Assembly: GCF_000212355.1 (NCBI RefSeq)
Contig: NC_015496.1
Location: 1,116,001-1,180,000, forward strand
Reading direction: 5' to 3'
DNA length: 64,000 bases
DNA from: Dokdonia sp. 4H-3-7-5
Lineage (GTDB): Bacteria > Bacteroidota > Bacteroidia > Flavobacteriales > Flavobacteriaceae
Shown here one piece after another: positions 643 to 62,965 of the stretch; positions within the stretch are counted from its first letter, which is position 1, and each line of letters starts with the position of its first letter. The notes under the pieces are model-generated. The model saw only the letters and a list, made by a program, of their open reading frames with translations, was not told the DNA's origin and did not search any database. The position numbers and the translations under genes are program-made.

Positions 643-2064
643 TTAAGAAATTCTAATGGCAATTTCTCTAATAACGTCAAGCAAGCGCTCTGTGTGTTTT
701 GTTGTCGTAAAAGGGTTCATAAATGTGGTTCTTAAATAGAATTCTCCACGTAAAGAGGTTCCCACAATATAAAACTCTCCATCTTCTAGTAATGCTTTAC
801 GTATGCTCTGGTTGACAAGATTAACATCACCAGCGCTCGCTTTATATCTAAAACACACTATATTTGAGACTGGATCTAGCGCTACTTCAAAATCTTCTTG
901 CTTCTTCACTAAGGCAGCAAAATCCTTTCCCGCATCATAAAGCGTAGTAACAAAATCATCAAAAAACTGAACTCCATATGCATTTATAAGAGCATAAAAA
1001 CGCAAGCTCATCATACTTTTTGTACATTCAAAAGTCCTTTTGGCTAGGTTAAACCAGTCTGCATCTTCGTTCTTTTCCCAGAGATATTGTGCTTTTTGCT
1101 CAAACGTAGCGTAGCTAGCCGTACTTTCCTTAAAAATAACCGCCGTTGCCAGCGCACTTGTACCCATCATTTTATGACCGTCTATAATTATGGAATCGGC
1201 TTTATCTGCTCCATTTAATAGATGTTTGTATTTAGGAGAAAAAATAGCTGCTCCACCATGGGCTGCGTCTATGTGGAACCATATTTTTTTTGCTTTCGCG
1301 AAAGCGTGAATCGCTTCTAGATCATCGTAAACCCCAGTACTTGTGCTAGGAGCACTCCCCACAATAGCAATCACCTCATAACCTTTTGCTACAGCCGAAT
1401 CATAGTAAGTATCTAACAGTTCTGTGCGCATCTTGTAAGTGTCATCTGCAGGCACTTTTATAATGCCTTCACTCCCAAGGCCCATAATTCTAGCTGCTCT
1501 ATCTACGCAATAGTGCGCTTCCTCAGAAACCATAATGGCAAGTTTACTGCTGTGCCCTTCATTCCAAACATCACCTTCTGCCATCACTCTACGAGCAGCA
1601 AGTAAGGCTGTAAGGTTTGCGAGCGTTCCCCCAGAGGTTAGAAAACCGTCGCCATTATCGAAGCCAATAACTTTTGCAAACTGCTCGATAATCAATCGCT
1701 CCAGTGCAGTAGATGCTGCTCCCATCTCATATACTGCCATCCCATTATTAAGTTGCGCGCTCAATAGTGTGGCTAAAGCAGATACAGGCACCGTAGGTGC
1801 CACCTGATGACCTATATATTTAGGGTGGTGCGTGCGTATTGACCTCGCGATAACAGTCTTAAAAAAGTCTGAGGTTGTGTGATTAGATGAAATATACTCT
1901 TTCCAAAATTGATACTCATCTTCTGGTGTTGTCCACGTGATGACTTTCTCTGATTTTCCCGAGGTAGTGTCAGACAAGTATTGAGATATCTGATTTACTA
2001 GATCTGTTCCTTCTTCTTTAAAGAGTGAGCTATCGTATGCTTTTTTTAATAGGGATGTACTCAT
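643..2064 (-). CDS. Group II pyridoxal-phosphate-dependent amino acid decarboxylase
   Basis: 473 residues, full length for the glutamate/aromatic/diaminobutyrate decarboxylase family (fold-type I PLP enzymes), which release CO2 from an amino acid to give an amine. Visible signatures are the phosphate-binding TSGGTLAN (143-150), the ring-stacking His184 in EEAHYC, Asp266 in HIDAAHGG, and the PLP Schiff-base Lys298 in DGHKMM. The substrate cannot be read from sequence; diaminobutyrate or an aromatic amino acid are options. The ATG overlaps the stop of the upstream ArsR gene by one base (TAATG), so the two are translationally coupled. A dispersed palindrome is encoded at residues 254-258 as AFAKA. 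A second, only distantly similar decarboxylase lies at 54.3 kb. Confidence 0.88.
   Translation of the reverse strand: MSTSLLKKAYDSSLFKEEGTDLVNQISQYLSDTTSGKSEKVITWTTPEDEYQFWKEYISSNHTTSDFFKTVIARSIRTHHPKYIGHQVAPTVPVSALATLLSAQLNNGMAVYEMGAASTALERLIIEQFAKVIGFDNGDGFLTSGGTLANLTALLAARRVMAEGDVWNEGHSSKLAIMVSEEAHYCVDRAARIMGLGSEGIIKVPADDTYKMRTELLDTYYDSAVAKGYEVIAIVGSAPSTSTGVYDDLEAIHAFAKAKKIWFHIDAAHGGAAIFSPKYKHLLNGADKADSIIIDGHKMMGTSALATAVIFKESTASYATFEQKAQYLWEKNEDADWFNLAKRTFECTKSMMSLRFYALINAYGVQFFDDFVTTLYDAGKDFAALVKKQEDFEVALDPVSNIVCFRYKASAGDVNLVNQSIRKALLEDGEFYIVGTSLRGEFYLRTTFMNPFTTTKHTERLLDVIREIAIRIS
1292..1306. repeat. Dispersed palindrome GCTTTCGCGAAAGCG
   Basis: Perfect TTTCGCGAAA core inside the PLP decarboxylase gene, translated on the minus strand as AFAKA. 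Confidence 0.9.
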
Positions 2065-2393
2065 TACTTCTCAGACATTTTTGATTTAGTATGCTCAAAG
2101 AAATCGTAAAACAGTCCTTGCAATTGCTCCCATTTGCGAGCATCTATACTATAATACTGCGCTTTACCCTTAAACTGGCTTTTTAAAACTCCTGCTCTTT
2201 TAATTACTTGTAGGTGTTGTGAAGTCGTGGGCTGCGATAGTCTTATTTTCTCTGAGATATCTTGACATAGGCAACCATCGCAATCACCTATGTATTCTAT
2301 GATAGCCACACGTGCGGGATTAGAGAGAATCTTTGCCAGATCTGCAATCTGATTTGCCCTCATAGAATGTATATGCCTTTTTGTAACTCCCAT
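2064..2393 (-). CDS. ArsR-family winged-helix repressor with CxxCxC cysteine cluster
   Basis: 109 residues, normal ArsR/SmtB size. The winged helix-turn-helix is clear: a LAKILSNPAR helix, then SQPTTSQHLQVIKRAGVL as the recognition region, then the wing around KGKAQYYSI. Cys38, Cys41 and Cys43 (CDGCLC) sit at the start of the first DNA-binding helix, where the CVC metal site lies in classical ArsR. That suggests metal, metalloid or thiol-redox sensing. It is the first gene of a two-gene unit with the decarboxylase and probably autoregulates it. An imperfect -7 element, TATCTTTA, lies about 30 bases upstream. The inducer is unknown. Confidence 0.88.
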   Translation of the reverse strand: MGVTKRHIHSMRANQIADLAKILSNPARVAIIEYIGDCDGCLCQDISEKIRLSQPTTSQHLQVIKRAGVLKSQFKGKAQYYSIDARKWEQLQGLFYDFFEHTKSKMSEK

Positions 2394-2463
2394 AATGTTG
2401 CGTTGTTTATACTCTAAAGATATACATAAATTGTAATATCGCTATATTACGATAAAATATTTA

Positions 2464-2490: not shown

Positions 2491-2501
2491 TATTAATAAT
2501 T

Positions 2502-5036: not shown

Positions 5037-5423
5037 TTAAATTTTAGGATAGCTAGTTTGTGTTTTTTCATGACTCACTTCACCTGTATGCGCAGTAGTT
5101 GATTTCTCAAAAAGCAATAGGTGTACTTCCTCTCCGTCTTTTGTAGTTGGGCAATGTTCTACACCTTTAGGTACGACAATGATTTCACCTTGATGTACAG
5201 TTTCAGACCACTCTTTTTCTGGGTTTCCGCTTTCGCGAAAGCGCATTTCTAACACTCCTTTTTGCACATAAAACAACTCGTCTTCATCCTTATGACTATG
5301 CCATACAAAGTAACCAGAAATCTTAGCAAGCAAGACTTGCATATCATCTACCGTAGCAATCTGGTGTGGATGCCATTGCTTATCAAATTTGGAGTACTTA
5401 TCTTGAATGTTGATGGGCTTCAT
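5037..5423 (-). CDS. Small cupin-domain protein
   Basis: 128 residues forming one double-stranded beta-helix. Cupin motif 1 is His42-x-His44 followed by acidic residues 46-49 and Gly56 in YVQKG. Motif 2 is VPKGVEHCP with His90. This gives a three-His/one-Glu type metal site. Small cupins of this kind are often annotated as mannose-6-phosphate isomerase-like, but no substrate can be inferred. A dispersed palindrome is encoded as RFRES at residues 61-65, between the two motifs. An imperfect -7 element TATCTTTA lies about 25 bases upstream. Confidence 0.83.
   Translation of the reverse strand: MKPINIQDKYSKFDKQWHPHQIATVDDMQVLLAKISGYFVWHSHKDEDELFYVQKGVLEMRFRESGNPEKEWSETVHQGEIIVVPKGVEHCPTTKDGEEVHLLLFEKSTTAHTGEVSHEKTQTSYPKI
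5228..5243. repeat. Dispersed palindrome CGCTTTCGCGAAAGCG
   Basis: Full 16-base form in the cupin gene, translated as RFRES (frame 2 reading of the palindrome). Confidence 0.9.
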
Positions 5424-8528: not shown

Positions 8529-10322
8529 CTAATTAATTGCGTCGCCTCTCAAGTTCCTAAAGCGCTTCTGTGCCTCTACATAATAGATACTGTCTGCAAG
8601 GTCAAAAATAATGCGTTCGTAATTATTTTTTGCCTTTTCTGGTTGATTGAGTGGTCCTTCGTATAATCTTGCTAGGCGATAATAAGCATCATCTGCTAGT
8701 ACACCATCGCTATAATATTCTATGATTGTGAGGTAGTTTTTTTCTGCTTTCGCGAAAGCTTCTTTACGCTCATACAGTTTAGCCTGAGAAAGCAATGCCT
8801 CGTCTTCTATCTTTTCTCCCTTGTGCTTCTCTAAAATATCCTCATATAATGCGATGGCCTCTTCAGGCTTGTTTTGGAAAGCTAGCAAATCTGCCGTGGC
8901 ATATTTTTTAAGTGCTGTTTGTAAACTATCATCCATGGAGTTATCTCTAATAACGAGTAATAACTCTAGTGCATCATTTGCAATAAGTTGTGTTGCACCA
9001 GCCTTCAAGACATTAAGTTGCGACTCTGCCCAGTCAAAATCTGCTTTATAGTAACTAGTCTTTGCCACCTTAAATCGTGCTTCCTGCGAGATGACATTAT
9101 TCTGAATCTCATTCTGAATTTGAGAATAATAGATAAGTGCCTGATTAAACTTTTCTGTAAGCACCAAAATATCTGCTAGCTCCATCTTAAGACGAGCATG
9201 GTCAAATCTATCACGAGGGATTTCAATTCCCTTTTTAAGATATGCAATAGCCTCATCTGGCTGCTCCATATTAAACGCAAGAAAATGTGCATAATCTATT
9301 TGCAAAGGCACGGTGTATTCTTTCTTAATATATTGATCCAGTAAAGCTTCAAAACGTGTTTTAACGACCGCTTCATCTTCTGCTGTGACTGCCTTTTTTA
9401 CCGCCAGCTGTATTAACTGTTGCTCTGCATAAAGCTTAACACTACCCGCAACTACGTTATCTCTTAGAAATTCTAATATCTCTGTCGCATCTTCAATAGC
9501 ATTTTCTTCTATCGCAATTTCAGCTAGATTTATGATGCCTTCATATCTTCCTTCTGTACGGCGATAAATAGCCTTTTCTTGTGCAAATGCCTTTCTATAA
9601 TCCTTTTGTTGTATAAAAAGCCAACTTAGCAACTCATTATAAAGCACATTTTGTTCTGTTTGTAATCGTTTTAACAAGGTCTTTCTAAAGATGATGTTAG
9701 CCTCATTAAGCGGATCATCATTGACATAAAGGGCAAAATTACGTTGAGCGGCTTGTAGATAGTTTTCACTCTTATTAATTAGGTCTAAGTAGGCATTAAA
9801 CATTTTTTCTACCTCTCCTAGCTCTCCATAAAGTCTCGCTAGTTGGACATTATAATTCGCTCGTGGATTATTAGCCATTGCAATCTCATAGGCTTGAACA
9901 GCTTCTGTAAGTAAGTTGTGCTCTTGAAAAGCACGAGCAGCGCGATATGCACTCATAGTATTACTCTCTATGCCTGCAATTACTTGGTTATAATAATCCT
10001 GAGCGATAGAATCTCGCTGTTGTAGCTGATGGTTGTACCCTATCTCTACATAATAAAAACCTTTATCGCGAGTAGCGGCAAGGTTTTCGTTAAGCGCACT
10101 TTCGGCTTCTTTGTATTTTTCTAACTGCTGGTAGCTTTTTACAAGACCGGTAATGAGTACATGATTACCCTTCTGCTTAAGTAATGCTTTTTTGTAAGAA
10201 ATGATGGCCTTCTCAAACTCACCTTGATCTGCATAATTGCGAGCAAGTTGTTCTGTTTGCGCTTTCGCGAAAGCGAAAAAACCAAACACACAGATGAGTA
10301 TTAAAAACCAATTTTTCTTCAT
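8529..10322 (-). CDS. Secreted tetratricopeptide-repeat protein
   Basis: 597 residues. Residues 1-21 are a signal peptide (FLILICVFGFFAFAKAQ), so it is exported, probably periplasmic. The rest is almost entirely TPR-like helix pairs, with clear repeats near 25-60 (ADQGEFEKAIISYKKAL), 390-425 and 480-590 (EEAIALYEDIL, ADDAYYRLARLYEG). TPR arrays bind partner proteins; the partner is unknown. Two copies of the dispersed palindrome lie in this gene, one coding AFAKA at the end of the signal peptide and one coding AFAKA near residues 522-526. First gene of a unit continuing into DUF4286 and rsmA. Confidence 0.85.
   Translation of the reverse strand: MKKNWFLILICVFGFFAFAKAQTEQLARNYADQGEFEKAIISYKKALLKQKGNHVLITGLVKSYQQLEKYKEAESALNENLAATRDKGFYYVEIGYNHQLQQRDSIAQDYYNQVIAGIESNTMSAYRAARAFQEHNLLTEAVQAYEIAMANNPRANYNVQLARLYGELGEVEKMFNAYLDLINKSENYLQAAQRNFALYVNDDPLNEANIIFRKTLLKRLQTEQNVLYNELLSWLFIQQKDYRKAFAQEKAIYRRTEGRYEGIINLAEIAIEENAIEDATEILEFLRDNVVAGSVKLYAEQQLIQLAVKKAVTAEDEAVVKTRFEALLDQYIKKEYTVPLQIDYAHFLAFNMEQPDEAIAYLKKGIEIPRDRFDHARLKMELADILVLTEKFNQALIYYSQIQNEIQNNVISQEARFKVAKTSYYKADFDWAESQLNVLKAGATQLIANDALELLLVIRDNSMDDSLQTALKKYATADLLAFQNKPEEAIALYEDILEKHKGEKIEDEALLSQAKLYERKEAFAKAEKNYLTIIEYYSDGVLADDAYYRLARLYEGPLNQPEKAKNNYERIIFDLADSIYYVEAQKRFRNLRGDAIN
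8746..8759. repeat. Dispersed palindrome GCTTTCGCGAAAGC
   Basis: Perfect 14-base form in the 3' part of the TPR gene, translated as AFAKA between two TPR helices. Confidence 0.9.
10260..10275. repeat. Dispersed palindrome CGCTTTCGCGAAAGCG
   Basis: Full 16-base form encoding AFAKA across the signal-peptide cleavage region of the TPR protein. Confidence 0.9.
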
Positions 10323-10392: not shown

Positions 10393-11664
10393 TTAGTTAA
10401 TCATATCAAATCCGCAATAAGGGATAAGTGCCTTAGGAATTTTTATTCCTTCTGGTGTCTGGCAGTTTTCAAGAATTCCTGCAAGTACGCGTGGCAGCGC
10501 TAGTGAGCTACCATTAAGTGTATGTGCAAGCTTGTTCTGACCATCTTCATCCTTAAAACGAAGTTTTAAACGGTTTGCTTGAAAGGTCAAGAAGTTAGAA
10601 ACAGAACTAATTTCTAACCAGCGATCTTGCGCTGTAGAAAATAATTCAAAATCATAGGTAAGGTGCGCTGTAAACCCAAGGTCACCACCACAAAGACGTA
10701 AAATTCTGTAAGGCATCTCTAGCTCATCCAGTATTGTTTTTACGTGATCTACCATCCCGTCTAGTGCAGCTGCACTATCTTCTGGACGTTCTATACGTAC
10801 AATCTCAACTTTATCAAACTGGTGCAAGCGATTTAACCCGCGTACGTGTGCTCCATAAGATCCCGCCTCACGACGGAAACATGGTGTGTACCCCGTACAT
10901 GTAATAGGCAACTCATTGTGATTACGTAAATCACCGCGAAACATATTTGTCACTGGCACCTCTGCCGTAGGGATTAAATATAAATCGTCTTCGGTCACAT
11001 GATACATTTGCCCTTCCTTATCTGGAAGTTGGCCAGTACCAAAACCTGACGCCTCATTTACAAGGTGCGGCACTTGGTATTCTGTATATCCAGCCTCGGT
11101 ATTTTTGTCTAAAAAATAAGCGATAAGCGCACGTTGTAATCGTGCTCCTTTGCCTTTATACACCGGAAAACCAGCCCCAGCAATCTTAGTTCCTAGTTCA
11201 AAATCAATAATATCATATTTCTTTGCAAGCTCCCAGTGTGGCTGTGCTGCTTCATGCAACTCAGGAATATCTCCCTTACGAAAGATTTCTTCATTATCCT
11301 CATCACTGTTACCCTCAGGAACACTGTCATGTGGAATGTTTGGGATTTGATATAGCAAGTTCTGCAAATCCTCAGAAGCAGTGTTTAATTGCTCTTGGAG
11401 GGTTTTAGATTGTTCTTTTAAACCTGCAGTTTTCTCTTTAAGAATATTAGCTTTTTGAGCTTCTCCACTTTTAAAAAGCATTCCTATTTCCTTGGAAAAC
11501 TTATTACTATCTGCAAGTACTTCATCAAGTTGCGCTTGCGAACTACGACGAAGATCATCTGCCGCTACTACTTGATCAAGTAAGGTTGCAGCGTCTATAT
11601 TTCTTTTAGATAACGCTTTCGCGAAAGCTTCTTTGTTTTCTCTAATGTGTGCTACTTCTAGCAT
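10393..11664 (-). CDS. serS: Serine--tRNA ligase
   Basis: 423 residues, standard length. Residues 1-105 form the long antiparallel coiled-coil arm that grips the tRNA-Ser variable arm. The class II catalytic core follows: TAEVPVTN, the motif 2 segment FRREAGSYGAHVRGL, and motif 3 LNGSSLALPRVLAGILEN near the C-terminus. It charges tRNA-Ser with serine. The gene is monocistronic, with a strong hairpin terminator downstream. A near-consensus -7 element TACCTTTT lies about 25 bases upstream of the ATG. A palindrome copy encodes AFAKA in the first helix of the arm. Confidence 0.97.
   Translation of the reverse strand: MLEVAHIRENKEAFAKALSKRNIDAATLLDQVVAADDLRRSSQAQLDEVLADSNKFSKEIGMLFKSGEAQKANILKEKTAGLKEQSKTLQEQLNTASEDLQNLLYQIPNIPHDSVPEGNSDEDNEEIFRKGDIPELHEAAQPHWELAKKYDIIDFELGTKIAGAGFPVYKGKGARLQRALIAYFLDKNTEAGYTEYQVPHLVNEASGFGTGQLPDKEGQMYHVTEDDLYLIPTAEVPVTNMFRGDLRNHNELPITCTGYTPCFRREAGSYGAHVRGLNRLHQFDKVEIVRIERPEDSAAALDGMVDHVKTILDELEMPYRILRLCGGDLGFTAHLTYDFELFSTAQDRWLEISSVSNFLTFQANRLKLRFKDEDGQNKLAHTLNGSSLALPRVLAGILENCQTPEGIKIPKALIPYCGFDMIN
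11614..11628. repeat. Dispersed palindrome CGCTTTCGCGAAAGC
   Basis: 15-base form in serS, translated as AFAKA in the N-terminal arm, close to residue 13. Confidence 0.9.
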
Positions 11665-14311: not shown

Positions 14312-15736
14312 TTAATCACCTCCAAAACTAGGAAACAACCCCTTATCATCCAGATAACCATCACTATCTAGCACCCAAGGATTATGAGAGAACCAGTTCC
14401 AGTCGACACTCGCGAGATCTACTCCTGGATCTATAAGCTCTTGAGACTTACGGCCGTTTATGCGTATTCTACATTTTACGTAGACCGCTACATCTTGCCC
14501 TTCTGTCTTTTTGAGCTGTTTAATGTATTGAGCAAATTGCCATATCACATCTGGTTTTGACCTGATATTGCGTTGTTGGTTTTTTGTGAGGTACTCTTTA
14601 TGGTCTAGTGTAGTTCGCTTTCCGGTTGCCTTATCTTCTACCGTAAACGTTACTGATCCACCTTTAGAACGTAGCATCATACGCCAACTCAAACGATGTC
14701 CTTCCTCAGACCACAGCACATTATCTTGTATAAAATGCTGTCGCAGCGGCAAGCCTATTTGCACTACAAAATACACTGCAAATACAGTGAGCATTGCTGT
14801 CTTATATTTAGGGATAATTAAAGTTTGAGGTGAGCCAGTAATTGAACCAGTTGTAATTCCTTGATTATAATGATTCACTTTGCTACGCTCGTAAAAAGGT
14901 TTCCAGCGTTTAAGAAATAAATTATGAATGGTTCTCGGCTCAAAAAAGAATACCGTAAATGCCAGCGACATGTATGGAAAAATCCCAATCTGAAACACAA
15001 ATGAGTTAAAGAGATGAAAGAATATGGAGATAAAAAATGCCCATGTACGTGTACGTTTCCATAACAATAATGGGATGATCAAACCATCAAATGCGATTCC
15101 TACGTAAGAAATAATCCAGTGTGTCCAGTCCTTTTGAAGCACACCACCCACGAGCCAATAATCTTTCTTACCACGCATTAATATTTCTGGTACCGTCGCA
15201 TCTAACCAGTCGGGATATATTTTGGCAATAGACGCGTAGGTATAAACAATCCACAGTTGGAAAATGATAAACAAAGTCACCCAGCGCGGCATGCTTATGT
15301 TTCTTACGCTTTCGCGAAAGCGTGCATCAATAGAAAACGCAGCGTTTGCAGGAAGTATAGCCATAATCCATAACAGCAGCATTAATAGATAATAGTGGTT
15401 ATTATAAGCGGTTTTTTGCATGAAATACACGGTACTCCACATAATTGCATAGCCAATAATTGCTACGCGGTATTTAAAACCTAACATTACCATCACTCCA
15501 AAAACTCCCATTAAACCAAACCACGCATACATTTGTGGTCCAGGCCCTGGAAATGTTTGTAAAAAGTTAAAACCTATAAAGTTAAAAGTGAATTCTGGTG
15601 TTACGAGTATACGTCTCACCCACCCTGTAGCAAGCGCTCCCCAAGCCTCACAAGTAATAAGAAAACCAAAAAAAATGCGAAACACAATGAGCGCGCTGTT
15701 ATCTATTCTAGTAAAGAGGAGCTTATTAAGTGACAT
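14312..15736 (-). CDS. HTTM-domain (vitamin K-dependent carboxylase-like) membrane protein
   Basis: 474 residues. Residues 1-285 form the horizontally transferred transmembrane (HTTM) domain shared with vitamin K-dependent gamma-glutamyl carboxylase: many helices plus KTAYNNHYYLLMLLLW, and later YTYASIAKIYPDWLDA, where the lysine of animal carboxylases is expected. Residues about 310-474 contain one more helix and a soluble C-terminal region. The bacterial substrate is unknown. It ends the minus-strand unit pth-ribF-HTTM, nine bases after ribF. A palindrome encodes RFRES in a loop near residue 140. Confidence 0.8.
   Translation of the reverse strand: MSLNKLLFTRIDNSALIVFRIFFGFLITCEAWGALATGWVRRILVTPEFTFNFIGFNFLQTFPGPGPQMYAWFGLMGVFGVMVMLGFKYRVAIIGYAIMWSTVYFMQKTAYNNHYYLLMLLLWIMAILPANAAFSIDARFRESVRNISMPRWVTLFIIFQLWIVYTYASIAKIYPDWLDATVPEILMRGKKDYWLVGGVLQKDWTHWIISYVGIAFDGLIIPLLLWKRTRTWAFFISIFFHLFNSFVFQIGIFPYMSLAFTVFFFEPRTIHNLFLKRWKPFYERSKVNHYNQGITTGSITGSPQTLIIPKYKTAMLTVFAVYFVVQIGLPLRQHFIQDNVLWSEEGHRLSWRMMLRSKGGSVTFTVEDKATGKRTTLDHKEYLTKNQQRNIRSKPDVIWQFAQYIKQLKKTEGQDVAVYVKCRIRINGRKSQELIDPGVDLASVDWNWFSHNPWVLDSDGYLDDKGLFPSFGGD
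15307..15322. repeat. Dispersed palindrome CGCTTTCGCGAAAGCG (18-base form)
   Basis: Extends by one base pair on each side to ACGCTTTCGCGAAAGCGT. Translated as RFRES within the HTTM protein. Confidence 0.9.
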
Positions 15737-16677: not shown

Positions 16678-17310
16678 TTATTTGCCGTTGTACGCGTTCA
16701 TTGTATTATTAATTCCTCCACTCACAAAAGAAGTGATTACCTCACAACTCTTATCTAAGCGCTCTGGAAGACTAGCTTGCTCCTCTGGCGTCCATTCTCC
16801 TAACACATAATCTACTTGACGTCCCGTAGAAAACGCATCACTTATGCCAAAACGGAATCTATTATATGCAGAAGTATTAAGTTGAGCCTGCGTGTCTTTT
16901 AGTCCATTATGTCCTCCCGCCGAACCTTTGGTTTTCACTCTTATGGTTCCAAATTCCAAATTCAAATCATCTGTAATTACTAGAAGATTTTCTACAGGGA
17001 TTTTTTCTTGTTGCAACCAGTATCGTATAGCCTTACCACTTAAATTCATAAAAGTATTAGGCTTTAATAAGATAACGGTTTTACCTTTTACTTTGGTACG
17101 CGCGATGTCACCTAGTTTTTCAGTTTCGAAAGTGGTTTCTTGCGCTTTCGCGAAAGCGTCTACCACCTTAAATCCTATATTATGCCTAGTTTCTGTGTAC
17201 TTAGGACCTATGTTTCCTAAACCAACGATAAGAAATTTTTTCATGGGGTCTATTGCTTCCTCTTCTATCGTTACTTTTCTAAATAATCTACCGAAAAAAG
17301 AGCGCATCAT
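16678..17310 (-). CDS. pth: Peptidyl-tRNA hydrolase
   Basis: 210 residues. Core motifs are FLIVGLGNIGPKY (26-38), catalytic His43 in TRHNIGF, LLKPNTFMNLSG, DDLNLEFG and the GSAGGHNGLKD loop. It frees tRNA from peptidyl-tRNA that drops off the ribosome. About 20 residues precede the usual start; such an extension is common in Flavobacteriaceae Pth, though the internal Met23 is an alternative start. A palindrome encodes AFAKA at 52-56, in the helix after HNIGF. First gene of a unit with ribF and HTTM. Confidence 0.95.
   Translation of the reverse strand: MMRSFFGRLFRKVTIEEEAIDPMKKFLIVGLGNIGPKYTETRHNIGFKVVDAFAKAQETTFETEKLGDIARTKVKGKTVILLKPNTFMNLSGKAIRYWLQQEKIPVENLLVITDDLNLEFGTIRVKTKGSAGGHNGLKDTQAQLNTSAYNRFRFGISDAFSTGRQVDYVLGEWTPEEQASLPERLDKSCEVITSFVSGGINNTMNAYNGK
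17143..17158. repeat. Dispersed palindrome CGCTTTCGCGAAAGCG
   Basis: Full 16-base form in pth, translated as AFAKA. Confidence 0.9.
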
Positions 17311-25319: not shown

Positions 25320-26348
25320 TTGAAAAAGCCACTTCTAGAATTTACAGATAAGGGCATCTATTGCCCGCCCGCAAAGGTCTATCTGGACCCGTGGAAACCT
25401 GTAGATAAAGCCCTCATCACGCACGGCCACGCAGACCATAGTCGGTGGGGACATAAACAGTACATCACTCACGAGAGTAACGTTCCTATTATTTCTCATA
25501 GGTTGGGAGATATCAATGTTTCTGGGGTACGCTTTCGCGAAAGCGTAAACATCAACAATGTAAAATTCACCTTTCATCCCGCTGGCCACATTCCTGGCTC
25601 TAGTCAGATACGTGTAGAACACAAGGGCGAAGTGTGGGTGTTTACAGGAGATTATAAGACTGAAGTAGATGGTATCTCTCAACCCTACGAACCCGTGAAA
25701 TGCGACACTTTCATTACCGAATGTACCTTTGGACTCCCAGCTTTCAAATGGACACCACAAGCCGAAGTAATGCACGACATAAATACTTGGTGGGCGAAAA
25801 ATAAAGCCGAAGGAAAGTGTTCTGTACTATTTGCTTACAGTTTAGGTAAAGCACAACGATTATTGAAACACCTTGACCCGAGTATAGGCAAGATCCTCAC
25901 ACACGGCGCTATCGAAAAAATGACCGAAGTACTGCGCCCTATGATCGATATGCCGGCAACAGAATTAGTCACTAGAGATACTAAAAAGGAAGATTTTAAA
26001 GGAAGTATCGTCCTAGCACCACCAGCCACTCACGGCAGTACATGGATACGCAAGATGGTGCCATATGTAACTGCAAGCGCAAGCGGCTGGATGGCTTTTA
26101 GAGGAGCACGAAGACGCAGAGCTATCGACAAAGGGTTTGTAATGAGCGATCATTGCGATTGGCCTAGCTTACTAGAAAGTATAGAAGCTACGGGTGCCGA
26201 AAAAATCATTTGCACTCATGGATACACAGATATATTTTCCAAATACCTACGCAGTATAGGCTATGATGCGCGCACAGAAGAAACGCAATATGAAGGCGAA
26301 CTAGCAGAAATGGATGCAAAAAAAGAGGAGGAGGAAACTAGCGTATGA
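25320..26348 (+). CDS. Ligase-associated DNA exonuclease (metallo-beta-lactamase fold)
   Basis: 342 residues. Metallo-beta-lactamase/beta-CASP relative of SNM1: the HGHADHSRWG metal motif near residue 36, HPAGHIPGSSQ, FTGDYK, and the late SDHCDWPSLL. Proteins of this type sit beside an ATP-dependent ligase and Lhr-like helicase and process DNA ends. The start is TTG (25320); no ATG or GTG is available in frame before FTDKGIYCPPAKVYLDPW, the conserved beginning. The stop overlaps the ligase ATG by four bases. A palindrome encodes RFRES near residues 72-76. Confidence 0.88.
   Translation: MKKPLLEFTDKGIYCPPAKVYLDPWKPVDKALITHGHADHSRWGHKQYITHESNVPIISHRLGDINVSGVRFRESVNINNVKFTFHPAGHIPGSSQIRVEHKGEVWVFTGDYKTEVDGISQPYEPVKCDTFITECTFGLPAFKWTPQAEVMHDINTWWAKNKAEGKCSVLFAYSLGKAQRLLKHLDPSIGKILTHGAIEKMTEVLRPMIDMPATELVTRDTKKEDFKGSIVLAPPATHGSTWIRKMVPYVTASASGWMAFRGARRRRAIDKGFVMSDHCDWPSLLESIEATGAEKIICTHGYTDIFSKYLRSIGYDARTEETQYEGELAEMDAKKEEEETSV
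25530..25545. repeat. Dispersed palindrome CGCTTTCGCGAAAGCG (18-base form)
   Basis: Extends to ACGCTTTCGCGAAAGCGT. Translated as RFRES in the exonuclease. Confidence 0.9.
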
Positions 26349-27970
26349 AACTATTTGCAGCACTCATAAAGACACTCGATTCTACAAATAAGACTAACGA
26401 GAAGGTCAAGGCGCTTGCGCATTACTTCAGAGAAGCGTCAGATAAAGACAAGGTGTGGACTATTGCCATCTTATCGCACCGTCGCCCTCCAAGACCCGTA
26501 AACACCACCTTACTCAGGGAATGGGCGAGCGAACTATCAAACATCCCGTTATGGCTATTTGAAGAAAGTTACCACATCGTGGGTGACCTCGCAGAAACGA
26601 TTGCACTTGTGGTTCCCGCAGCAACAGCATCTTCAGAGAAGTCGCTTACTCAGTTTCTGGAAGAGATGATTTCGCTTAAGCGAAAAACGGATGAAGAGAA
26701 AAAGGAATACCTGTTTGATAACTGGGCAAATCTCAACTATTATGAACGTTTTGTATTTACAAAATTAATTACAGGAGGCTTTAGAATAGGTGTGAGTCAA
26801 AAGTTGATGACGCGTGCATTATCACAAGCGACAGACATAGAAGAAGATGTGCTTGCTTATAAATTAATGGGCGACTGGAAACCACAGACGGTCACCTTTC
26901 ACGATCTGGTTATCGAAGAAGATGCAAGTCAAGAATTTTCAAGGCCGTATCCGTTTTACCTTGCCTATGCAGTTGAAGATGAACCTTCGGCGCTGGGTGA
27001 TGTAACAGATTTTCTTGCCGAACATAAGTGGGATGGTATACGCTCACAAACCATCTTTCGTAATGGGGAGATTTTTATCTGGAGTCGCGGTGAAGAGCTA
27101 GTGACAGATAAGTACCCAGAACTTGAGATTCTCAAAGAACATATACCAGACGGAACCGTCATAGATGGTGAGTTACTACCTTTTTATGATGGGCAGATCG
27201 GCACATTTAACGACTTACAAGCGCGTATAGGACGTAAAACCGTGAGCAAGAAAATGCTCAAAGAAGTGCCTGTAATTATCAAGGCTTATGATATTCTAGA
27301 ATGGGAAGGAAAAGACTTGCGTGAAACCGCTTTCGCGAAAAGAAGGACTATCCTCGAATCGTTATATCGCAATATCACAGATAAAGAACTGCCTATAGGC
27401 ATTTCTGAAACGATGGAGTTTGATAGTTGGGAAGCAATGGCACAAGAAAGAGATCGTAGTAGAGAGATGCGCTCTGAAGGGTTAATGATTAAGCGTAAAG
27501 ACAGCCCCTATCGCGTAGGTAGAAAAAAAGGCGACTGGTGGAAATGGAAAGTTGATCCACTCACCATTGATGCGGTACTCACGTATGCAATGCGTGGTCA
27601 CGGTAGACGAAGTAATTTATTTACAGATTACACCTTTGGTTTATGGAATGAAGATAAAACAGAGCTTGTTACTTTTGCTAAAGCATATTCAGGCCTCACA
27701 GATGCCGAGTTTAGAAAAGTAGACAACTGGATTAAAAAAAACACGTTAGAACGTTTTGGTCCAGTGAGATCTGTAACGCCTCATCACGTGTTTGAGATTG
27801 CTTTTGAAGGTATAGCGTTATCAAAAAGACATAAAAGTGGTATAGCCACGCGTTTCCCAAGGATGCTACGCTGGCGACACGATAAGCAGATAGAAGATGC
27901 AAATACACTAGAGGATTTAAAAGGGATGATTCCGAGCGCAGCAAAGGAATCTCTCCCGCCCACAAAATAA
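26345..27970 (+). CDS. ATP-dependent DNA ligase of the ligase-associated repair cluster
   Basis: 541 residues. Residues 1-200 are the alpha-helical DNA-binding domain. The adenylation domain follows, with the nucleotidyl lysine Lys228 in EHKWDGIR, then IDGELL, EGLMIKRKDSPYRVG and the motif V WWKWKVDP. The OB-fold completes the C-terminus. It seals nicks after self-adenylation with ATP, in addition to the essential NAD-dependent ligase expected elsewhere in the genome. ATGA overlap with the exonuclease. The related helicase gene should follow directly but is displaced by a DUF559 gene. Palindrome-related copies code AFAKR and SLKRK. Confidence 0.92.
   Translation: MKLFAALIKTLDSTNKTNEKVKALAHYFREASDKDKVWTIAILSHRRPPRPVNTTLLREWASELSNIPLWLFEESYHIVGDLAETIALVVPAATASSEKSLTQFLEEMISLKRKTDEEKKEYLFDNWANLNYYERFVFTKLITGGFRIGVSQKLMTRALSQATDIEEDVLAYKLMGDWKPQTVTFHDLVIEEDASQEFSRPYPFYLAYAVEDEPSALGDVTDFLAEHKWDGIRSQTIFRNGEIFIWSRGEELVTDKYPELEILKEHIPDGTVIDGELLPFYDGQIGTFNDLQARIGRKTVSKKMLKEVPVIIKAYDILEWEGKDLRETAFAKRRTILESLYRNITDKELPIGISETMEFDSWEAMAQERDRSREMRSEGLMIKRKDSPYRVGRKKGDWWKWKVDPLTIDAVLTYAMRGHGRRSNLFTDYTFGLWNEDKTELVTFAKAYSGLTDAEFRKVDNWIKKNTLERFGPVRSVTPHHVFEIAFEGIALSKRHKSGIATRFPRMLRWRHDKQIEDANTLEDLKGMIPSAAKESLPPTK
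26670..26685. repeat. Variant palindrome TTTCGCTTAAGCGAAA
   Basis: A perfect 16-base palindrome built from the same halves as the common repeat but in swapped order. It codes SLKRK in the ligase. It may be unrelated. Confidence 0.4.
27328..27341. repeat. Dispersed palindrome, right arm decayed (CGCTTTCGCGAAAAG)
   Basis: Perfect ten-base core in the ligase gene, translated AFAKR; the right outer arm is lost. Confidence 0.85.
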
Positions 27971-36611: not shown

Positions 36612-37526
36612 GTGAAAAATAAATCAATGGTTACACCTCCATATCTTAAATACGGCGATAAAGTCGGAATAGTTGCCACGGCACGTAAAATTTCTAAAAA
36701 AGAACTTGAAGAGGGCATCGCGCTTCTTGAAAGTTGGGGCTTAGTTCCCGTGTTAGGAAACACCATAGGCCTCGAAGACAATCAGTATGCTGGGACAGAC
36801 TTTGAGAGAGCACAAGACTTTCAGCAAATGATGGATAACACGGAGATTAAAGCCATCTGGTGTGCTCGTGGCGGCTACGGAACCGTGCGCATAGTAGATG
36901 ATCTAGATTTTTACAAATTTGTCAAATATCCAAAGTGGGTAGTGGGTTACTCAGATGTGACGGTGTTACATAGCCATATTCATAAAATAGGCTTCAAAAC
37001 GATACACGCCACAATGCCGGTTTCTCTTGAGGATAATACCGCTTTCGCGAAAGCGTCATTAAAACAATCTCTTTTTGGCGAGCAACCTAACTTTAGTTAC
37101 AACACCACAAATAAACTTAATAGACTAGGCACTGCAAAAGGGAACCTTGTAGGCGGTAATCTCTCTATACTTTACAGCCTTTGTGGCAGTAGCTCTGATC
37201 TAGATACAGCTGATAAAATCTTATTTATAGAAGACCTTGATGAGTACCTCTATCATATAGATAGAATGGTAGTCAATCTAAAACGCAACGGGATGCTAGA
37301 TCACTGTGCGGGTATGGTAGTAGGTGGTATGACAAAGATGCACGATAACAGAATCCCTTTTGGAAAAACGGCTCAAGAAATTGTGCTAGATGCTGTAAAA
37401 GAATGTGACTTCCCAGTAGCTTTCGACTTCCCAGCAGGTCACGTAGCTAATAATAATGCGTTGAAGTTGGGGAGTGAGATTGAACTTGTTGTTACTCAAA
37501 ATACCACAAAAATAACTTATCTCTAA
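36612..37526 (+). CDS. LD-carboxypeptidase (peptidase S66)
   Basis: 304 residues from GTG, or 299 from the ATG at 36627. S66 fold: the N-terminal IVATARKIS strand, WCARGGYGTVR, the nucleophile Ser114 in VVGYSDVT, the Glu in FIEDLDEYLYHIDRM, and a late His in FPAGHVANNNALKLG. These enzymes cut the LD bond of the tetrapeptide in recycled murein (LdcA) or act as microcin self-immunity factors (MccF). In this setting murein recycling is more likely. yraN follows seven bases later. A palindrome encodes AFAKA. Confidence 0.9.
   Translation: MKNKSMVTPPYLKYGDKVGIVATARKISKKELEEGIALLESWGLVPVLGNTIGLEDNQYAGTDFERAQDFQQMMDNTEIKAIWCARGGYGTVRIVDDLDFYKFVKYPKWVVGYSDVTVLHSHIHKIGFKTIHATMPVSLEDNTAFAKASLKQSLFGEQPNFSYNTTNKLNRLGTAKGNLVGGNLSILYSLCGSSSDLDTADKILFIEDLDEYLYHIDRMVVNLKRNGMLDHCAGMVVGGMTKMHDNRIPFGKTAQEIVLDAVKECDFPVAFDFPAGHVANNNALKLGSEIELVVTQNTTKITYL
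37040..37055. repeat. Dispersed palindrome CGCTTTCGCGAAAGCG
   Basis: Full form in the S66 peptidase gene, translated AFAKA. Confidence 0.9.
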
Positions 37527-38884: not shown

Positions 38885-38899
38885 CGCTTTCGCGAAAGC
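38885..38899. repeat. Dispersed palindrome CGCTTTCGCGAAAGC, intergenic
   Basis: Lies eight bases beyond the stop codon of the LysR gene. There is no U-run, so it is not a standard terminator. Confidence 0.9.
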
Positions 38900-41513: not shown

Positions 41514-41529
41514 CGCTTTCGCGAAAGCG
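41514..41529. repeat. Dispersed palindrome CGCTTTCGCGAAAGCG (18-base form), intergenic
   Basis: ACGCTTTCGCGAAAGCGT sits between sbtA and the next gene, 18 bases before the ATG at 41548. Confidence 0.9.
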
Positions 41530-41884: not shown

Positions 41885-42769
41885 ATGGCAAAGATATTAA
41901 AATCACTTTCTGAGTATGTACAAATTTCTATAGGTATTGCCCTCGCGAGTATAGGCCTCAAAGCCTTCTTGCTACCTAATGGGTTTCTGGATGGTGGAGC
42001 AACGGGTATCGCTATTTTATTAAGTAAAAAGTTAGATCTAGACATCTCCTTACTGCTCTTTATTGTGAGTATTCCGTTTCTAGTGTTGGGTTTTTATAAG
42101 CTTTCGCGAAATATTCTATTAAAAAGCACGGTATCCATCTTGATACTAGCAGTCCTTATCGGAGTCGAGTCCTTCCCAGTAATTACTGAAGACAAGCTTC
42201 TCATTGCTATTTTTGGCGGTATGTTTTTAGGAGCTGGTATTGGTATCAGTATACGCAACGGTGCGGTGCTTGACGGATCTGAAATTCTAGGAATTTATGT
42301 CTTTGATCTTTTTGGAATAAGCATAGGTAAAACTATTCTGGCTTTCAATATTATTCTATTTATTATCACCGCATTAGTACTTAGTGTAGAAGTCGCACTA
42401 TATTCCATACTTACCTATATCGTGACCGCGAAGTTTATCGATTTTTTTATAGAAGGATTTGAAGATTTTATAGGTATTACCATCATATCCCCGTCATCTG
42501 AAGAAATAGAACAAAAGATTCTTAATGAGCTTGGCACTGGTATTACCGTCTACAAAGCCGCGGCAGGTTATGGAAGTACAGGTCAAAATAATGAACGCCG
42601 CGTGATACAAACCGTGATAAACCGTATACACCTGCGCAAAATACACAAGCTCATAGACTCCTGCGATCCCGAGGCTTTTATCGTAGAGTTTGATGTAAAT
42701 AATGTAAAGGGAGGAGTACTTAGAAGATACCTAGACACTAAAAATAATAGAAAGTTAGCTAGTTTTTAA
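41885..42769 (+). CDS. YitT/DUF2179 family membrane protein
   Basis: 294 residues. Five to six membrane helices in the first 190 residues, with the typical IGLKAFLLPNGFLDGGATGI opening and GAGIGISIRNGAVLDGSEIL. A soluble DUF2179 domain at the end (GYGSTGQNNERRVIQTVINR) looks like a small ligand-binding fold. Function is unproven in most species. The palindrome copy at 42100 codes LSRN. Confidence 0.87.
   Translation: MAKILKSLSEYVQISIGIALASIGLKAFLLPNGFLDGGATGIAILLSKKLDLDISLLLFIVSIPFLVLGFYKLSRNILLKSTVSILILAVLIGVESFPVITEDKLLIAIFGGMFLGAGIGISIRNGAVLDGSEILGIYVFDLFGISIGKTILAFNIILFIITALVLSVEVALYSILTYIVTAKFIDFFIEGFEDFIGITIISPSSEEIEQKILNELGTGITVYKAAAGYGSTGQNNERRVIQTVINRIHLRKIHKLIDSCDPEAFIVEFDVNNVKGGVLRRYLDTKNNRKLASF
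42100..42111. repeat. Dispersed palindrome, partial (GCTTTCGCGAAA)
   Basis: Perfect core, right arm lost. Third-frame reading LSRN in the YitT gene. Confidence 0.8.
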
Positions 42770-46593: not shown

Positions 46594-46609
46594 CGCTTTC
46601 GCGAAAGCG
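46594..46609. repeat. Dispersed palindrome CGCTTTCGCGAAAGCG, intergenic
   Basis: Full form, six bases past the stop of the DUF2490 gene; no U-run on either strand. The rest of the 190-base gap shows no gene. Confidence 0.9.
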
Positions 46610-48039: not shown

Positions 48040-51000
48040 CCATAGGCAGCTCTGCTGCTTTTTTCTTGGTGCTTTCTGGCATTAATGGTCGTAGTAATGC
48101 TACCACATCATTCACTGTCTTAGCATCGTCAGATTTTAGGAGTAATCGCAATCCTTTAGATAGCTTTTTCTCTTTTATCCCTATGCGATATGCGTTTTCT
48201 TGTACAAACTTAAGAACACGACCAAATGCTGGACTTTGATAGAAAGCACTCTGCTGGTCTGCAATGAAAAAGCCGGTGAGTTTTCCATTTTTGAGAACCA
48301 CTTTCTCAAGGCCTATTTTAGTCGCTACCCACTTGATACGCACAGAATCCAATAAATCTTCAGCTTCTTCTGGTAATGGTCCAAAACGGTCTACGAGTTG
48401 GCGTTCAAAATCGTCTAGTTGCTCCTCTGTTTTTACATTATTGAGCTGTGTGTATAAGTTTAAGCGTTCAGTGATATTGTTGACGTAGTCATCTGGAAAT
48501 AGAAGACTAAAGTCAGTATCAATCACTGTGTCTTTTACATAATCTTTTTCTGCTTTCGCGAAAGCGGGATCATCATTATACAACTCTGAAAATTCATCTT
48601 CCTTAAGCTCATCAATGGCTTCATTTAGGATTTTTTGATATGTATCAAACCCTATCTCATTGATGAATCCGCTCTGTTCTCCTCCTAATAAATCTCCAGC
48701 ACCACGTATCTCAAGATCCTTCATGGCGATGTTGAAACCACTACCTAAAACAGAAAATTGCTCCAGCGCCTGGATGCGCTTACGAGCATCATCTGTCATA
48801 GCACTGTATGGAGGAGTAATAAAGTAACAAAACGCTTTCTTGTTGCTACGTCCCACACGACCTCGCATCTGGTGGAGGTCTGACAGTCCAAAATTATTTG
48901 CGTTATTTATAAAAATCGTATTTGCATTAGGCACATCAAGTCCGCTCTCAATAATAGTGGTAGACACCAGTACATCAAACTCACCGTTCATGAACGATAA
49001 CATCTTTGCTTCAAGTGTTTTCCCTTCCATTTGCCCGTGACCTATACCCACTTTTGCATCGGGTACAAGACGCTGAATAAGACCCGCAACTTCCTTAATA
49101 TTCTCGATACGGTTATGGATAAAGAATACTTGGCCGCCACGCTGTATTTCATACTGCACCGCATCTCGTATCACCTCCTCAGAGAAGCGCACTACATTAC
49201 TTTCTATAGGATATCTATTAGGTGGCGCCGTATTTATGGTACTTAAATCCCTTGCTGCCATGAGTGAGAACTGCAGTGTTCTTGGGATAGGAGTTGCTGT
49301 AAGCGTGAGTGTATCTACGGTTTCAGAGATGGTTTTGAGCTTATCTTTTACCGCAACGCCAAATTTTTGTTCCTCATCAATAACGAGAAGTCCTAGGTCT
49401 TTAAAGTTTACATTTTTACTCGTAAGCTGGTGCGTACCTATCACAATATCGATTGCCCCACTTTCTAATCCTGCTAGCACTTCGCGCTTTTCTTTTGCTG
49501 TTCTAAAACGGTTGAGATAGTCAATTTTTACAGGAAAATCTTTGAGACGCTCCTTAAATGTTCGTGCATGTTGATAGGCTAGAATCGTTGTAGGTACAAG
49601 TACAGCAACTTGCTTACCACCATCAACCGCTTTAAACGCGGCGCGAATGGCAACCTCTGTTTTACCAAAACCTACATCCCCACACACTAAGCGATCCATA
49701 GGACGCTCACTTTCCATATCACGCTTTACATCTTCGGTAGCGCTACTTTGATCTGGTGTGTCCTCATAAATAAAACTAGCTTCTAATTCATGCTGCATGT
49801 GCGTATCTGGCCCAAAGGCATAGCCTTTTTGAAGTCTACGTTTTGCATATAATTTAATGAGGTTAAACGCAACGTGCTTCACTCTAGACTTGGTCTTTGC
49901 CTTAAGCTTTTTCCATGCCTGGCTACCTAGTTTATAAATTTGTGGCGGCTTGCCATCTTTACCGTTATACTTTGTAATTTTATGTAGCGAGTGAATACTG
50001 AGGTATAAAATATCTCGCTCTCCGTAGATCAATTTGATTGCTTCTTGCGGCTTCCCTTCTACATCAATCTTCTGTAATCCACCAAATTTTCCAATCCCGT
50101 GATCAATATGCGTCACATAATCACCTACGGAGAGATGGCTCAATTCCTTAAGCGTAATGGATTGCTTTTTTGCATACCCATTCTTAAGATTAAACTTGTG
50201 ATAACGCTCAAAAATCTGGTGATCTGTATAGATCGCTATCTTCTGCTCATCATCTATAAATCCCTGATATAATGACAGTACCACTGTTTCATATTGCTTT
50301 ACAATCGCATCTGCATCGTCAAAAATGTCATGAAAACGCTTTGCCGCTTGCTCCGTCACACAGGCAATATAGTTCTTATAACCCTTTGCGGAGTTTTCAT
50401 TCAAGTTTGCAATCAATAAGTCAAACTGCTTATTAAAAGAAGGTTGTGGTTGTTGCTCAAAATTGATTGTAGTATCAGCTATCGCACCATCTATTTTTGA
50501 GGTGAGATCTACTGTGGCAAACGTATCTAGCTGCTGCTGTAATGCAGCTCCATGCATAAAAAGCTCCTCTGGTGAGTTGCGCTTTATCTCTGAGTCAAGG
50601 TTAGAAAATGCTTCTTCCGCTTTCGCGAAATTTTTATCAGTACGATCTACAAGAAGTGATCTGTTTTTTATAAAAACTACCGTTTTAGGCGAGATATACT
50701 CTAGAAAACTCTGGCGTACTTCTGTTAATGCCTTGTTCTCAACATTAGGCATCACCGAAATCTTTTTCACCTGCCCAGTTGAGAGTTGGCTCTCCACATC
50801 AAACGTCCTTATACTATCTACCTCATCACCAAAAAACTCAATACGATACGGCTCATCATGAGAAAACGAAAATACATCTACAATCCCTCCACGTACCGAA
50901 AATTCTCCCGGCTCTGTAACAAAATCAACACGTTTAAATTTATATTCAAACAGCATCTCATTTACAAAATCCAGCGACAGTTGATCACTCACTGCTATTT

Positions 51001-51475: not shown

Positions 51476-51490
51476 GCTTTCGCGAAAGCG
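51476..51490. repeat. Dispersed palindrome GCTTTCGCGAAAGCG, in the mfd promoter region
   Basis: Intergenic copy between mfd and the DoxX gene, overlapping the -33 region of mfd. Confidence 0.9.
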
Positions 51491-56578: not shown

Positions 56579-57727
56579 GTGCAAAATCAATACGATTATA
56601 TTATTCTAGGTGCTGGTCTTTCTGGACTAACAACAGCGCTTCGTATGGCAAGAGATACCTTTTTTAAAAATGCGTCTATTGCTATCATCGATCAAGATCT
56701 CCATAAAAAAAATGATCGCACTTGGTGTTTTTGGGAGACTACTCCAGATCTGTTTGAAAGCGTCGTTTCTTACTCTTGGCCTTCGGTATTAATTAAAGGA
56801 AATAAACAAAGTACGACCATAGACATATCTCCATATACCTACAAAAAGGTGGAGAGTGAGCAATTGTACGCTTTCGCGAAAGCAGAATTATCGCAACATA
56901 GCAATATCACGTTTATACAAGGTGAAATAACACATGTCTCTGAAAAAGAAAACGGAGCAATAGCAAAAACTGTTGATAATGAATATCATGCTACCACAAT
57001 TTTAAATAGCATTTACAAACCAAAGCAATTAGAAAATCAGCAAAAAGTTGTGGTATTACAACAGCACTTTGTAGGCTGGTTTGTAAAGACTGATAAGGCT
57101 GTTTTTAATACTAAAGTAGCAACGTACATGGATTTTAGCATACCTCAAAAAGGTAATTGCAGATTTATGTATATACTTCCTACTTCTCCTCAAGAAGCAC
57201 TTATAGAATACACGCTTTTCTCTAAAGATTTACTTCCTAAAAAAGAGTACGAAGAAGCTATAAAGGATTATTTAAATAATCTTGGAGTAACAGATTATGA
57301 AATCACAAATCGAGAATACGGGAGTATCCCTATGACCACTTATAACTTTGCTCAACACAATAGCAAGCATGTGCTACATATAGGTACTGCAGGCGGGTGG
57401 ACTAAAGCGAGTACAGGATATACATTTAAACATACCTTGAAAAAATCTGCGGCGCTTATTGATTTTTTAAAAAGTGGTAAACCTCTAAAAAATTATAGCC
57501 TTAAAAATCGCTGGACTTTTTATGATGGCGTATTGCTTGAAGTTCTTGCTGCGCACAATGAACGTGGTGCAGAGATTTTTACACGCATGTTTAAAAAAGG
57601 AAAAGCCGCACATATCTTTAGATTTCTAGATGAAGAATCATCCTATAAAGATGAGCTTGAAGTTATTTTAAGTGCGCCTAAAATTCCTTTTATAAAAGCG
57701 GCATTTAAGGTATTATTTAAAAAGTAA
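56579..57727 (+). CDS. crtY: Lycopene beta-cyclase CrtY
   Basis: 382 residues, GTG start. Flavoprotein fold with the GAGLSG dinucleotide motif (11-16), the DRTWCFWE signature (46-53) of lycopene cyclases, and KASTGYTFKHT near 280. It converts lycopene to beta-carotene, the precursor of zeaxanthin and of retinal for proteorhodopsin in marine flavobacteria. No other carotenoid gene is in the window, so it is detached from the main crt cluster. A palindrome encodes AFAKA near residue 98. Confidence 0.93.
   Translation: MQNQYDYIILGAGLSGLTTALRMARDTFFKNASIAIIDQDLHKKNDRTWCFWETTPDLFESVVSYSWPSVLIKGNKQSTTIDISPYTYKKVESEQLYAFAKAELSQHSNITFIQGEITHVSEKENGAIAKTVDNEYHATTILNSIYKPKQLENQQKVVVLQQHFVGWFVKTDKAVFNTKVATYMDFSIPQKGNCRFMYILPTSPQEALIEYTLFSKDLLPKKEYEEAIKDYLNNLGVTDYEITNREYGSIPMTTYNFAQHNSKHVLHIGTAGGWTKASTGYTFKHTLKKSAALIDFLKSGKPLKNYSLKNRWTFYDGVLLEVLAAHNERGAEIFTRMFKKGKAAHIFRFLDEESSYKDELEVILSAPKIPFIKAAFKVLFKK
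56869..56883. repeat. Dispersed palindrome CGCTTTCGCGAAAGC
   Basis: In crtY, translated AFAKA. Confidence 0.9.
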
Positions 57728-59959: not shown

Positions 59960-59972
59960 CGCTTTCGCGAAA
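59960..59972. repeat. Dispersed palindrome, partial (CGCTTTCGCGAAA), intergenic
   Basis: Between the bacilliredoxin terminator and the HD gene; right arm decayed. The gap (59871-60073) holds only this and the terminator. Confidence 0.85.
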
Positions 59973-60795: not shown

Positions 60796-60808
60796 TTTCG
60801 CGAAAGCG
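60796..60808. repeat. Dispersed palindrome, partial (TTTCGCGAAAGCG), intergenic
   Basis: Left arm decayed; lies between the terminator and the S9 peptidase stop. Confidence 0.85.
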
Positions 60809-62775: not shown

Positions 62776-62949
62776 TAATTGTAATGGATAGTCAGTACCT
62801 AGCTGTGTGTAGGTTCCTGAGATGTTATCATTTGTAATAATCCCAAGATACCTCATTTTTAAATTTACACTTGTTATAGAAATCTTATTTTCTTCAAAAG
62901 TGGCGCTGACTGCTCCTTTCTTATAAGCTTTTTTATAGTTCCTCTATTG

Positions 62950-62965
62950 CGCTTTCGCGAAAGCG
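62950..62965. repeat. Dispersed palindrome CGCTTTCGCGAAAGCG, intergenic
   Basis: Full form between the S9 peptidase gene and the partial gene at the right edge. Confidence 0.9.

Follow-up and report, generated by a model that had tools for sequence, protein, structure and literature searches.

The parS and Noc-binding sites have a T-rich/A-rich palindrome as their consensus. HIP1 (GCGATCGC) and the alternate HIPs of cyanobacteria, perfect palindromes tied to methylases, are present in certain clades only, and there in vast genome-wide excess; HIP1 is 8 bp long, recurs about once per kb, and its role is described as unsettled (PMC4390886). The DNA-uptake sequences of Pasteurellaceae and Neisseriaceae reach about 1000 or more copies, with even spacing reported, many copies in open reading frames (ORFs) and an excess in non-coding DNA; in Haemophilus influenzae 764 singly mismatched copies accompany 1471 perfect ones (representation value 2.0; PMC1939737). 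Chi of Escherichia coli occurs at 0.2/kb, is abundant in phages lacking RecBCD inhibitors (PMC3784561) and favours the core genome (PMC8022716). Here we describe a dispersed palindrome with the ten-base core TTTCGCGAAA, recognized in a stretch of 64,000 nucleotides (the window; contig NC_015496.1, positions 1,116,001 to 1,180,000) from the flavobacterium Dokdonia sp. 4H-3-7-5.

The palindrome resembles each of these systems in part. With the HIPs it shares perfect symmetry, a genome-wide frequency far over expectation and restriction to certain clades, but it extends over 14-18 bp, has directional flanks, occurs once per 3.35 kb, and its bearers share no methylase among three families tested. 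Like the uptake sequences it has about a thousand copies, even spacing, many copies in ORFs and a non-coding excess, and like those of Haemophilus AT-rich flanks; unlike them it is palindromic, occurs in phage DNA, and its ladder of near matches is weak or missing. Chi is matched in density, in phage copies and, judged by counts, in the small contribution that the extra DNA of larger genomes makes to the number of sites, whereas the motif is symmetric, long and without orientation, and the part of AddB that was read shows nothing specific to the bearers. The likeness to parS and Noc sites ends at the T-rich/A-rich palindrome, because copies are far more numerous here and each of 12 bearers has one ParB. 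No description of the motif was found in the open-licence literature, as judged by titles and the beginnings of abstracts, and the text of Elhai's HIP paper contains neither Dokdonia, Krokinobacter, TCGCGA nor Flavobacter.

Abundance and anatomy of the palindrome

A sequence-only reading of the window had reported 24 copies of the core against about 0.1 expected by chance. Exact search returned the same 24 copies (spanning 1294-62962), and 100 dinucleotide shuffles of the window gave a mean of 0.08 and a maximum of 1; GC content is 37.7%, not the 39% assumed. Six one-mismatch copies were counted (3674, 5652, 30935, 34941, 52024 and 61910) where three had been seen, and 8 of the 32 TCGCGA sites, rather than about six, lie outside the motif. 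Since shuffling yields 7.1 such sites, the free centre is not enriched, and the claim that the entire palindrome is favoured rather than its centre stands. Perfect symmetry extends over 10 bp at six sites, 14 bp at seven, 16 bp at seven, 18 bp at three and 20 bp at one; many copies thus have the 14-18 bases first described, within a wider span of 10-20 bp.

The genome-wide count in this and related flavobacteria, which had been proposed as a check, demonstrated that the enrichment is not confined to the window. The complete Dokdonia genome (G000; 3,389,993 bp, one contig) contains 1012 cores and 10 copies of the reversed word. All 18 genomes of the window's genus, whose assignment to Dokdonia is well supported, contain 481-1195 cores, G000 included; the same search covered 41 other relatives, of which only G027 (595) exceeds 12. 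Six of 397 genomes of the family are enriched (559-1107 cores): two of Dokdonia, three of a genus that is likely Nonlabens from its sequences, and one of a third genus, to which G230 belongs. The other 391 have at most 34 each, so that, within the family, only these three genera were found enriched. Among 395 genomes of the phylum, G000 has 757 copies of the 14-mer GCTTTCGCGAAAGC, 21 others have 1-6 each and the rest have none. A search of genome_contigs (84,980 species) with a 24-base extension, which misses bearers whose flanks differ, returned 32 stretches, 25 from Dokdonia, six from Nonlabens and one from 'Flavobacteria bacterium BBFL7'. Bearer genomes of 4.8-5.5 Mb have 955-1195 cores and those of 3.3 Mb 1012-1045; because the numbers stay so close, the extra DNA of the larger genomes must add few sites. 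In ten non-bearing genera, sampled at 40 kb each, no comparable dense palindrome was detected, the largest being TTCCGGAA (6-8 vs 1-2).

Three clusters in genomes with low counts may be islands from bearing donors: four 14-mers in 16 kb (G200:C1:311231-326922), and, in genomes otherwise poor in the motif, three cores in 6 kb (G183:C1:25221-31201) and seven in 100 kb (G029:C18:74149-174381). The idea that low-level copies in sister genera are fossils of the motif was rejected for the sample of G184, in which both copies lack the extended motif.

The anatomy of the element was studied in an 864-kb sample of G000 (25.5% of the genome) holding 249 sites. The full element is the palindrome (A)CGCTTTCGCGAAAGCG(T) with T/G-rich 5' flanks, which are strand-specific and reach out to about 25 bp from the centre; it is thus longer than the ten-base core of the sequence-only reading. 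Outside the core the half-site reads A (58%), C (76%), G (90%), C (90%), preceded by the C-poor, T/G-rich flank. At 10-20 bp from the centre (243 sites) C falls to 7.2% and T rises to 43.9%, compared with 18.6% and 31.4% in the background, and on the same strand the dinucleotides GG, GT, TT and TG are increased and CC, CA and AC decreased (CC -2.05, GG +0.67). Consensus and flank are alike in Dokdonia and Nonlabens genomes; the flank is weaker in G230 (17 sites).

Mirrored bases were compared at 360 sites for distances k=6-30 from the centre. Pairing equalled the expectation from composition at 24 of the 25 distances (z up to 1.2), the exception being k=9 (z 3.4), and the scores of the two half-sites were nearly uncorrelated (0.08). 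Because mirrored bases hardly covary, the half-sites appear to be read independently, as by a symmetric protein, and not as a hairpin; a hairpin maintained by compensatory changes was rejected on the same grounds, k=9 excepted.

Judged by Markov expectations, one-mismatch cores are in excess in G000 (66 vs 18-28) and in G230 (10 vs 3-5) and are not in a Nonlabens sample (4 vs 3-9), while two-mismatch cores in G000 number 303 against 349-428 expected. A mismatch ladder is therefore present to a modest degree in G000 but not in the Nonlabens sample; the reversed-word control had suggested no excess. A Markov model of maximum order was uninformative for the core, because the sub-words stem from the motif itself. 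Transitions within the CGCG centre give the commonest one-mismatch words of G000, and 51 of 64 one-off copies of the 16-mer deviate at the outermost base. Avoidance of the half-site outside the motif was considered and rejected: among all hexamers GCGAAA ranks just 94 of 2079 in G000, 17 of 2013 in Nonlabens and 931 of 2069 in G230.

Placement, conservation and phage copies

Rough gene calls placed 128 of the 249 sampled sites in coding and 121 in non-coding DNA, the latter being 20% of the sample. An earlier gene caller, applied to 464 kb, gave 73 coding and 59 non-coding sites at a non-coding share of 17%. By either count sites are enriched outside genes. Of the non-coding sites 26% lie within 30 bp past a stop codon, compared with 9% of random non-coding positions, and the first fifth of the gene holds 39 of the 128 coding sites. 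The 73 coding sites divide 40, 21 and 12 among the reading frames, with Ala-Phe-Ala-Lys-Ala (AFAKA), the commonest frame, in 34.

The sites are regularly spaced. The coefficient of variation of 227 gaps was 0.647, compared with 0.978 for random placing, and none of 2000 simulations was as even; the same was true of 1000 simulations in which coding and non-coding counts were matched. Gaps shorter than 500 bp (4 vs 32.4 expected) and longer than 10 kb (3 vs 8.8) are both scarce, the longest gap inside a sampled block is 11.8 kb, and density ranges from 1.25 to 4.0 sites per 10 kb across the blocks. One close pair of sites was inspected for a special locus beside it, and no candidate was seen. 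The addA/addB-like matches of G000 (C1:1270724-1280666) fall in one of the longer motif-free gaps; with 13 gaps over 8.5 kb listed this may be chance.

Conservation of position between strains, another check proposed from the sequence, was determined by aligning G000 with G007 (88.6% identity over 226 kb). Intact cores were found at 69 of 75 sites, compared with 38-39% of random 10-mers, and identity was 98.3% in the core and 86-89% at more than 11 bp from the centre. Conversely, 10 of 81 G007 sites have no core in G000, seven of them being off by one base, so that sites must also be gained or lost. The 24 window sites, 17 within an ORF of at least 100 amino acids and 7 outside, were compared with five relatives (a smaller denominator below gives the relatives aligned at that site), and several were unchanged in spite of a flank identity of 70-80%:

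1294..1303, in ORF 643-2064 (-), pyridoxal phosphate-dependent decarboxylase family; unchanged in 5/5 relatives
5231..5240, in ORF 5037-5423 (-), cupin; unchanged in 4/4
8748..8757, AFAKAE frame in ORF 8529-10322 (-); unchanged in 2/5, broken in G016, G003 and G004; position shared with G011 and with G230, a member of another genus
10263..10272, AFAKAQ near the N-terminus, ORF 8529-10322 (-); unchanged in 3/5, broken in G008 and G004; position shared with G016, G013 and G017
11617..11626, near the start of ORF 10393-11664 (-), seryl-tRNA synthetase family; unchanged in 4/5
15310..15319, in ORF 14312-15736 (-), HTTM / vitamin K-dependent carboxylase family; unchanged in 5/5
17146..17155, in ORF 16678-17310 (-), peptidyl-tRNA hydrolase; unchanged in 5/5
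25533..25542, longest symmetry (20 bp), in two overlapping ORFs of uncertain status and outside genes by rough gene calling; unchanged in 5/5
27331..27340, one half-site weak, in ORF 26345-27970 (+); unchanged in 4/5
29183..29192, in ORF 28544-31015 (+), Lhr-type helicase; unchanged in 4/5
30282..30291, in the same ORF 28544-31015 (+), Lhr-type helicase; unchanged in 5/5
32660..32669, in ORF 32070-34193 (-), Tex family; unchanged in 4/5
37043..37052, in ORF 36612-37526 (+), LD-carboxypeptidase family; unchanged in 5/5
38888..38897, outside ORFs, 9 bp past the stop of ORF 38907-39830 (-); unchanged in 5/5
41517..41526, outside ORFs, 16 bp past the stop of ORF 40538-41500 (+); unchanged in 5/5
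42102..42111, flanks weak, in ORF 41885-42769 (+); unchanged in 4/5
46597..46606, outside ORFs, 8 bp past the stop of ORF 46615-47301 (-); unchanged in 4/5
48554..48563, in ORF 48026-51439 (-), TRCF/Mfd family; unchanged in 5/5
50621..50630, right half weak, in the same ORF 48026-51439 (-), TRCF/Mfd family; unchanged in 2/5
51478..51487, outside ORFs, flanked by divergent ORFs; unchanged in 5/5
56872..56881, in ORF 56579-57727 (+), lycopene cyclase family; unchanged in 4/5
59963..59972, outside ORFs, one half weak; aligned in G007 alone and unchanged there
60796..60805, outside ORFs, 14 bp past the stop of ORF 60820-62856 (-); unchanged in 2/3
62953..62962, outside ORFs; no alignment in any of the five relatives

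The gene of a 597-amino-acid protein was followed across genomes. One AFAKA site is at the same place in four Dokdonia species, another is common to two Dokdonia species and G230, and a third place is used by two of three Nonlabens species; the locus has no site in any of 14 non-bearing genomes. The tree of this protein does not unite the bearers, and it requires at least two switches between bearing and non-bearing. The motif thus stands at other places in a separate lineage, which points, on the thin evidence of one gene, to a trans-acting reader that would be common to these lineages and was either gained twice or lost again.

Copies are also found in phage DNA. The 16-mer was detected in 41 stretches from 30 viral records of IMG/VR. 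In the 25 records counted, which had been selected for holding a copy and of which several with identical spacings are near-copies and not independent, there are 1-8 cores each (three or more in 15, one in seven) and 0-1 copies of the reversed word. Their locations include the interior of a head maturation protease gene, the ORF that follows a terminase and a point 9 bp past an integrase stop codon, and 35 distinct viral sites have a flank of the same kind, though less marked (C 14.5% vs 22.2%). The hosts of these phages are probably the motif-bearing flavobacteria. The cultured Nonlabens phages P12024S and P12024L (L389, L390) contain neither a core nor a one-mismatch core; they are related to each other, have no annotated integrase, and carry annotated ERF- and YqaJ-type recombination genes. 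Both lack TCGCGA, and CGCG is rare in P12024S (9 vs 43.6 expected).

A second repeat family was noticed in the 464-kb sample of G000 (10-mers such as AATGCAATCG, 40-50 copies).

Proposed function and competing explanations

It is well supported that the mark is real, conserved in place, regularly spaced and behaves as if read by a protein. As to its function we tentatively favour, at somewhat short of an even chance, a mark in duplex DNA that serves chromosome maintenance and is recognized by a dimeric protein common to the three genera, and rank this reading ahead of DNA uptake, then a Chi-like licence, then methylation. Every copy would serve, as duplex DNA, as the target of a single sequence-specific DNA-binding protein that is symmetric (dimeric) and that Dokdonia, Nonlabens and a third genus have in common. 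The half-sites, of approximately CGAAAGCGT, are each continued outward to about 25 bp by a G-poor (A/C-rich) strand. With the protein bound about every 3 kb, the chromosome would be marked for maintenance, most likely for organising the nucleoid or for dealing with DNA that is broken or being replicated. Retention of sites, their spacing and the phage copies would be explained if each site gave a small benefit and a second site nearby added little: selection would then keep the sites, space them, and also place them in phages living in these hosts.

Several observations weigh against this proposal. The strand-specific T/G vs A/C flank is not readily explained by duplex binding alone and would suit a single-stranded step, and it is not obvious why phage DNA should need sites that serve to organise the chromosome. 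The closest relative, G008, has a broken core at four of the 22 window sites aligned, so that single sites are not indispensable. The reader protein was not found: among 20 basic proteins from 645 genes of the 25.5% sample, judged by their first residues, there was no evident candidate, the search covering a quarter of the gene set and examining few of its proteins. An extra ParB/Noc paralogue as the reader was rejected, ParB being single in all 12 bearers searched.

In 20 aligned ParB sequences the sole column separating the bearers is 88, with Gly in 8/8 bearers (of two lineages) and Asn or Asp in 12/12 others. This column, which we take to be N-terminal to the helix-turn-helix and outside the DNA-reading part, is a weak lead to the reader and could be chance. 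A second ParB-like gene (a frame of about 600 codons), perhaps of a mobile element, was seen in the non-bearers G184 (C2:301894), G029 (C18:76094), G034 (C2:628743) and G061 (C1:781495).

The alternatives named in the sequence-only reading (HIP1-like repeats, uptake, chromosome organisation, methylation) proved to be the serious ones, although the methylation part lost ground. That the motif is an uptake signal, preferred by a surface receptor of competent cells and maintained by uptake and recombination, appears unlikely. The uptake sequences of Haemophilus offer parallels to the copy number, the regular spacing, the non-coding excess, the AT-rich flanks and the presence within ORFs (PMC1939737), and the modest one-mismatch excess of G000 agrees with such an origin. 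On the other hand, Haemophilus uptake sequences are, as far as that account describes them, not palindromes, the site occurs in phage DNA, and the Nonlabens sample lacks the one-mismatch excess that would correspond to the ladder documented for H. influenzae and N. gonorrhoeae.

We also regard as improbable a Chi-like licence, by which a helicase-nuclease (AddAB or another) would stop degrading at the site and recombination would start, self DNA and resident phages both carrying it. T/G-rich strands with their 3' ends toward the palindrome would suit RecA loading. The density of 0.3/kb is near that of E. coli Chi, whose abundance in phages is paralleled here; as phages divide there into those with and without RecBCD inhibitors (PMC3784561), so P12024S and P12024L, with their recombination genes, lack the motif and other phage records have it. 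A PDDEXK_1 match of the AddB/AddA type was obtained in 21/21 genomes. Yet Chi is short and asymmetric, whereas the motif is symmetric over 14-18 bp and, being its own reverse complement, shows the same 1012 copies on both strands and hence no orientation bias. Nor did AddB reveal a bearer group: in 21 sequences (762-778 of about 900 residues) the bearers were not one group, and no column had two or fewer residues in the bearers that were missing from the others (a stricter filter than that used for ParB), so that transfer of AddB and bearer-specific residues were both rejected. The lack of a comparable palindrome in the ten non-bearing genera also speaks against this explanation.

A by-product of methylation as discussed for HIP1, in which a methylase for part of the site and biased repair create and keep the copies, has a small chance of being correct. 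It would fit the palindromic, methylase-linked HIPs and the CGCG-centre transitions that lead the one-mismatch words of G000. However, none of the families PF00145, PF01555 and PF02086 (C5, N6/N4 and D12 methylases) is common to the nine bearers tested, though several hold one or another; type I, type III and Eco57I enzymes lay outside this test. Five of the nine have a C5 methylase, the exceptions being G000, G004, G230 and G281; N6/N4 methylases over the family cut-off are absent from all five Dokdonia and two of three Nonlabens genomes; D12 methylases are absent from G000, G230, G027 and G281. G281 has none of the three, and methylation loses support because G000 has no C5 or D12 methylase and only an N6/N4 fragment under the cut-off.

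A transcription terminator, hairpin RNA or cruciform is largely contradicted and very improbable: in spite of the excess just past stop codons and the pairing at k=9, about half of the sampled sites are in coding DNA, the arms do not covary at the other 24 distances, and the flank read outward is A-rich, not T-rich.

Beyond the maintenance proposal, there is a doubtful though not negligible prospect that these sites are a new class of genome mark, in which a palindrome set at even intervals, bordered by strand-specific flanks and read by a dimer, would license DNA as self, chromosome and resident phages alike needing copies every few kb, and in which the reader family would be new to such a role. 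The palindrome provides a case outside the cyanobacteria, in genera with cultured strains, of a site longer and sharper than HIP1, and its measurable selection, regular spacing and phage copies make the function of such sites testable.

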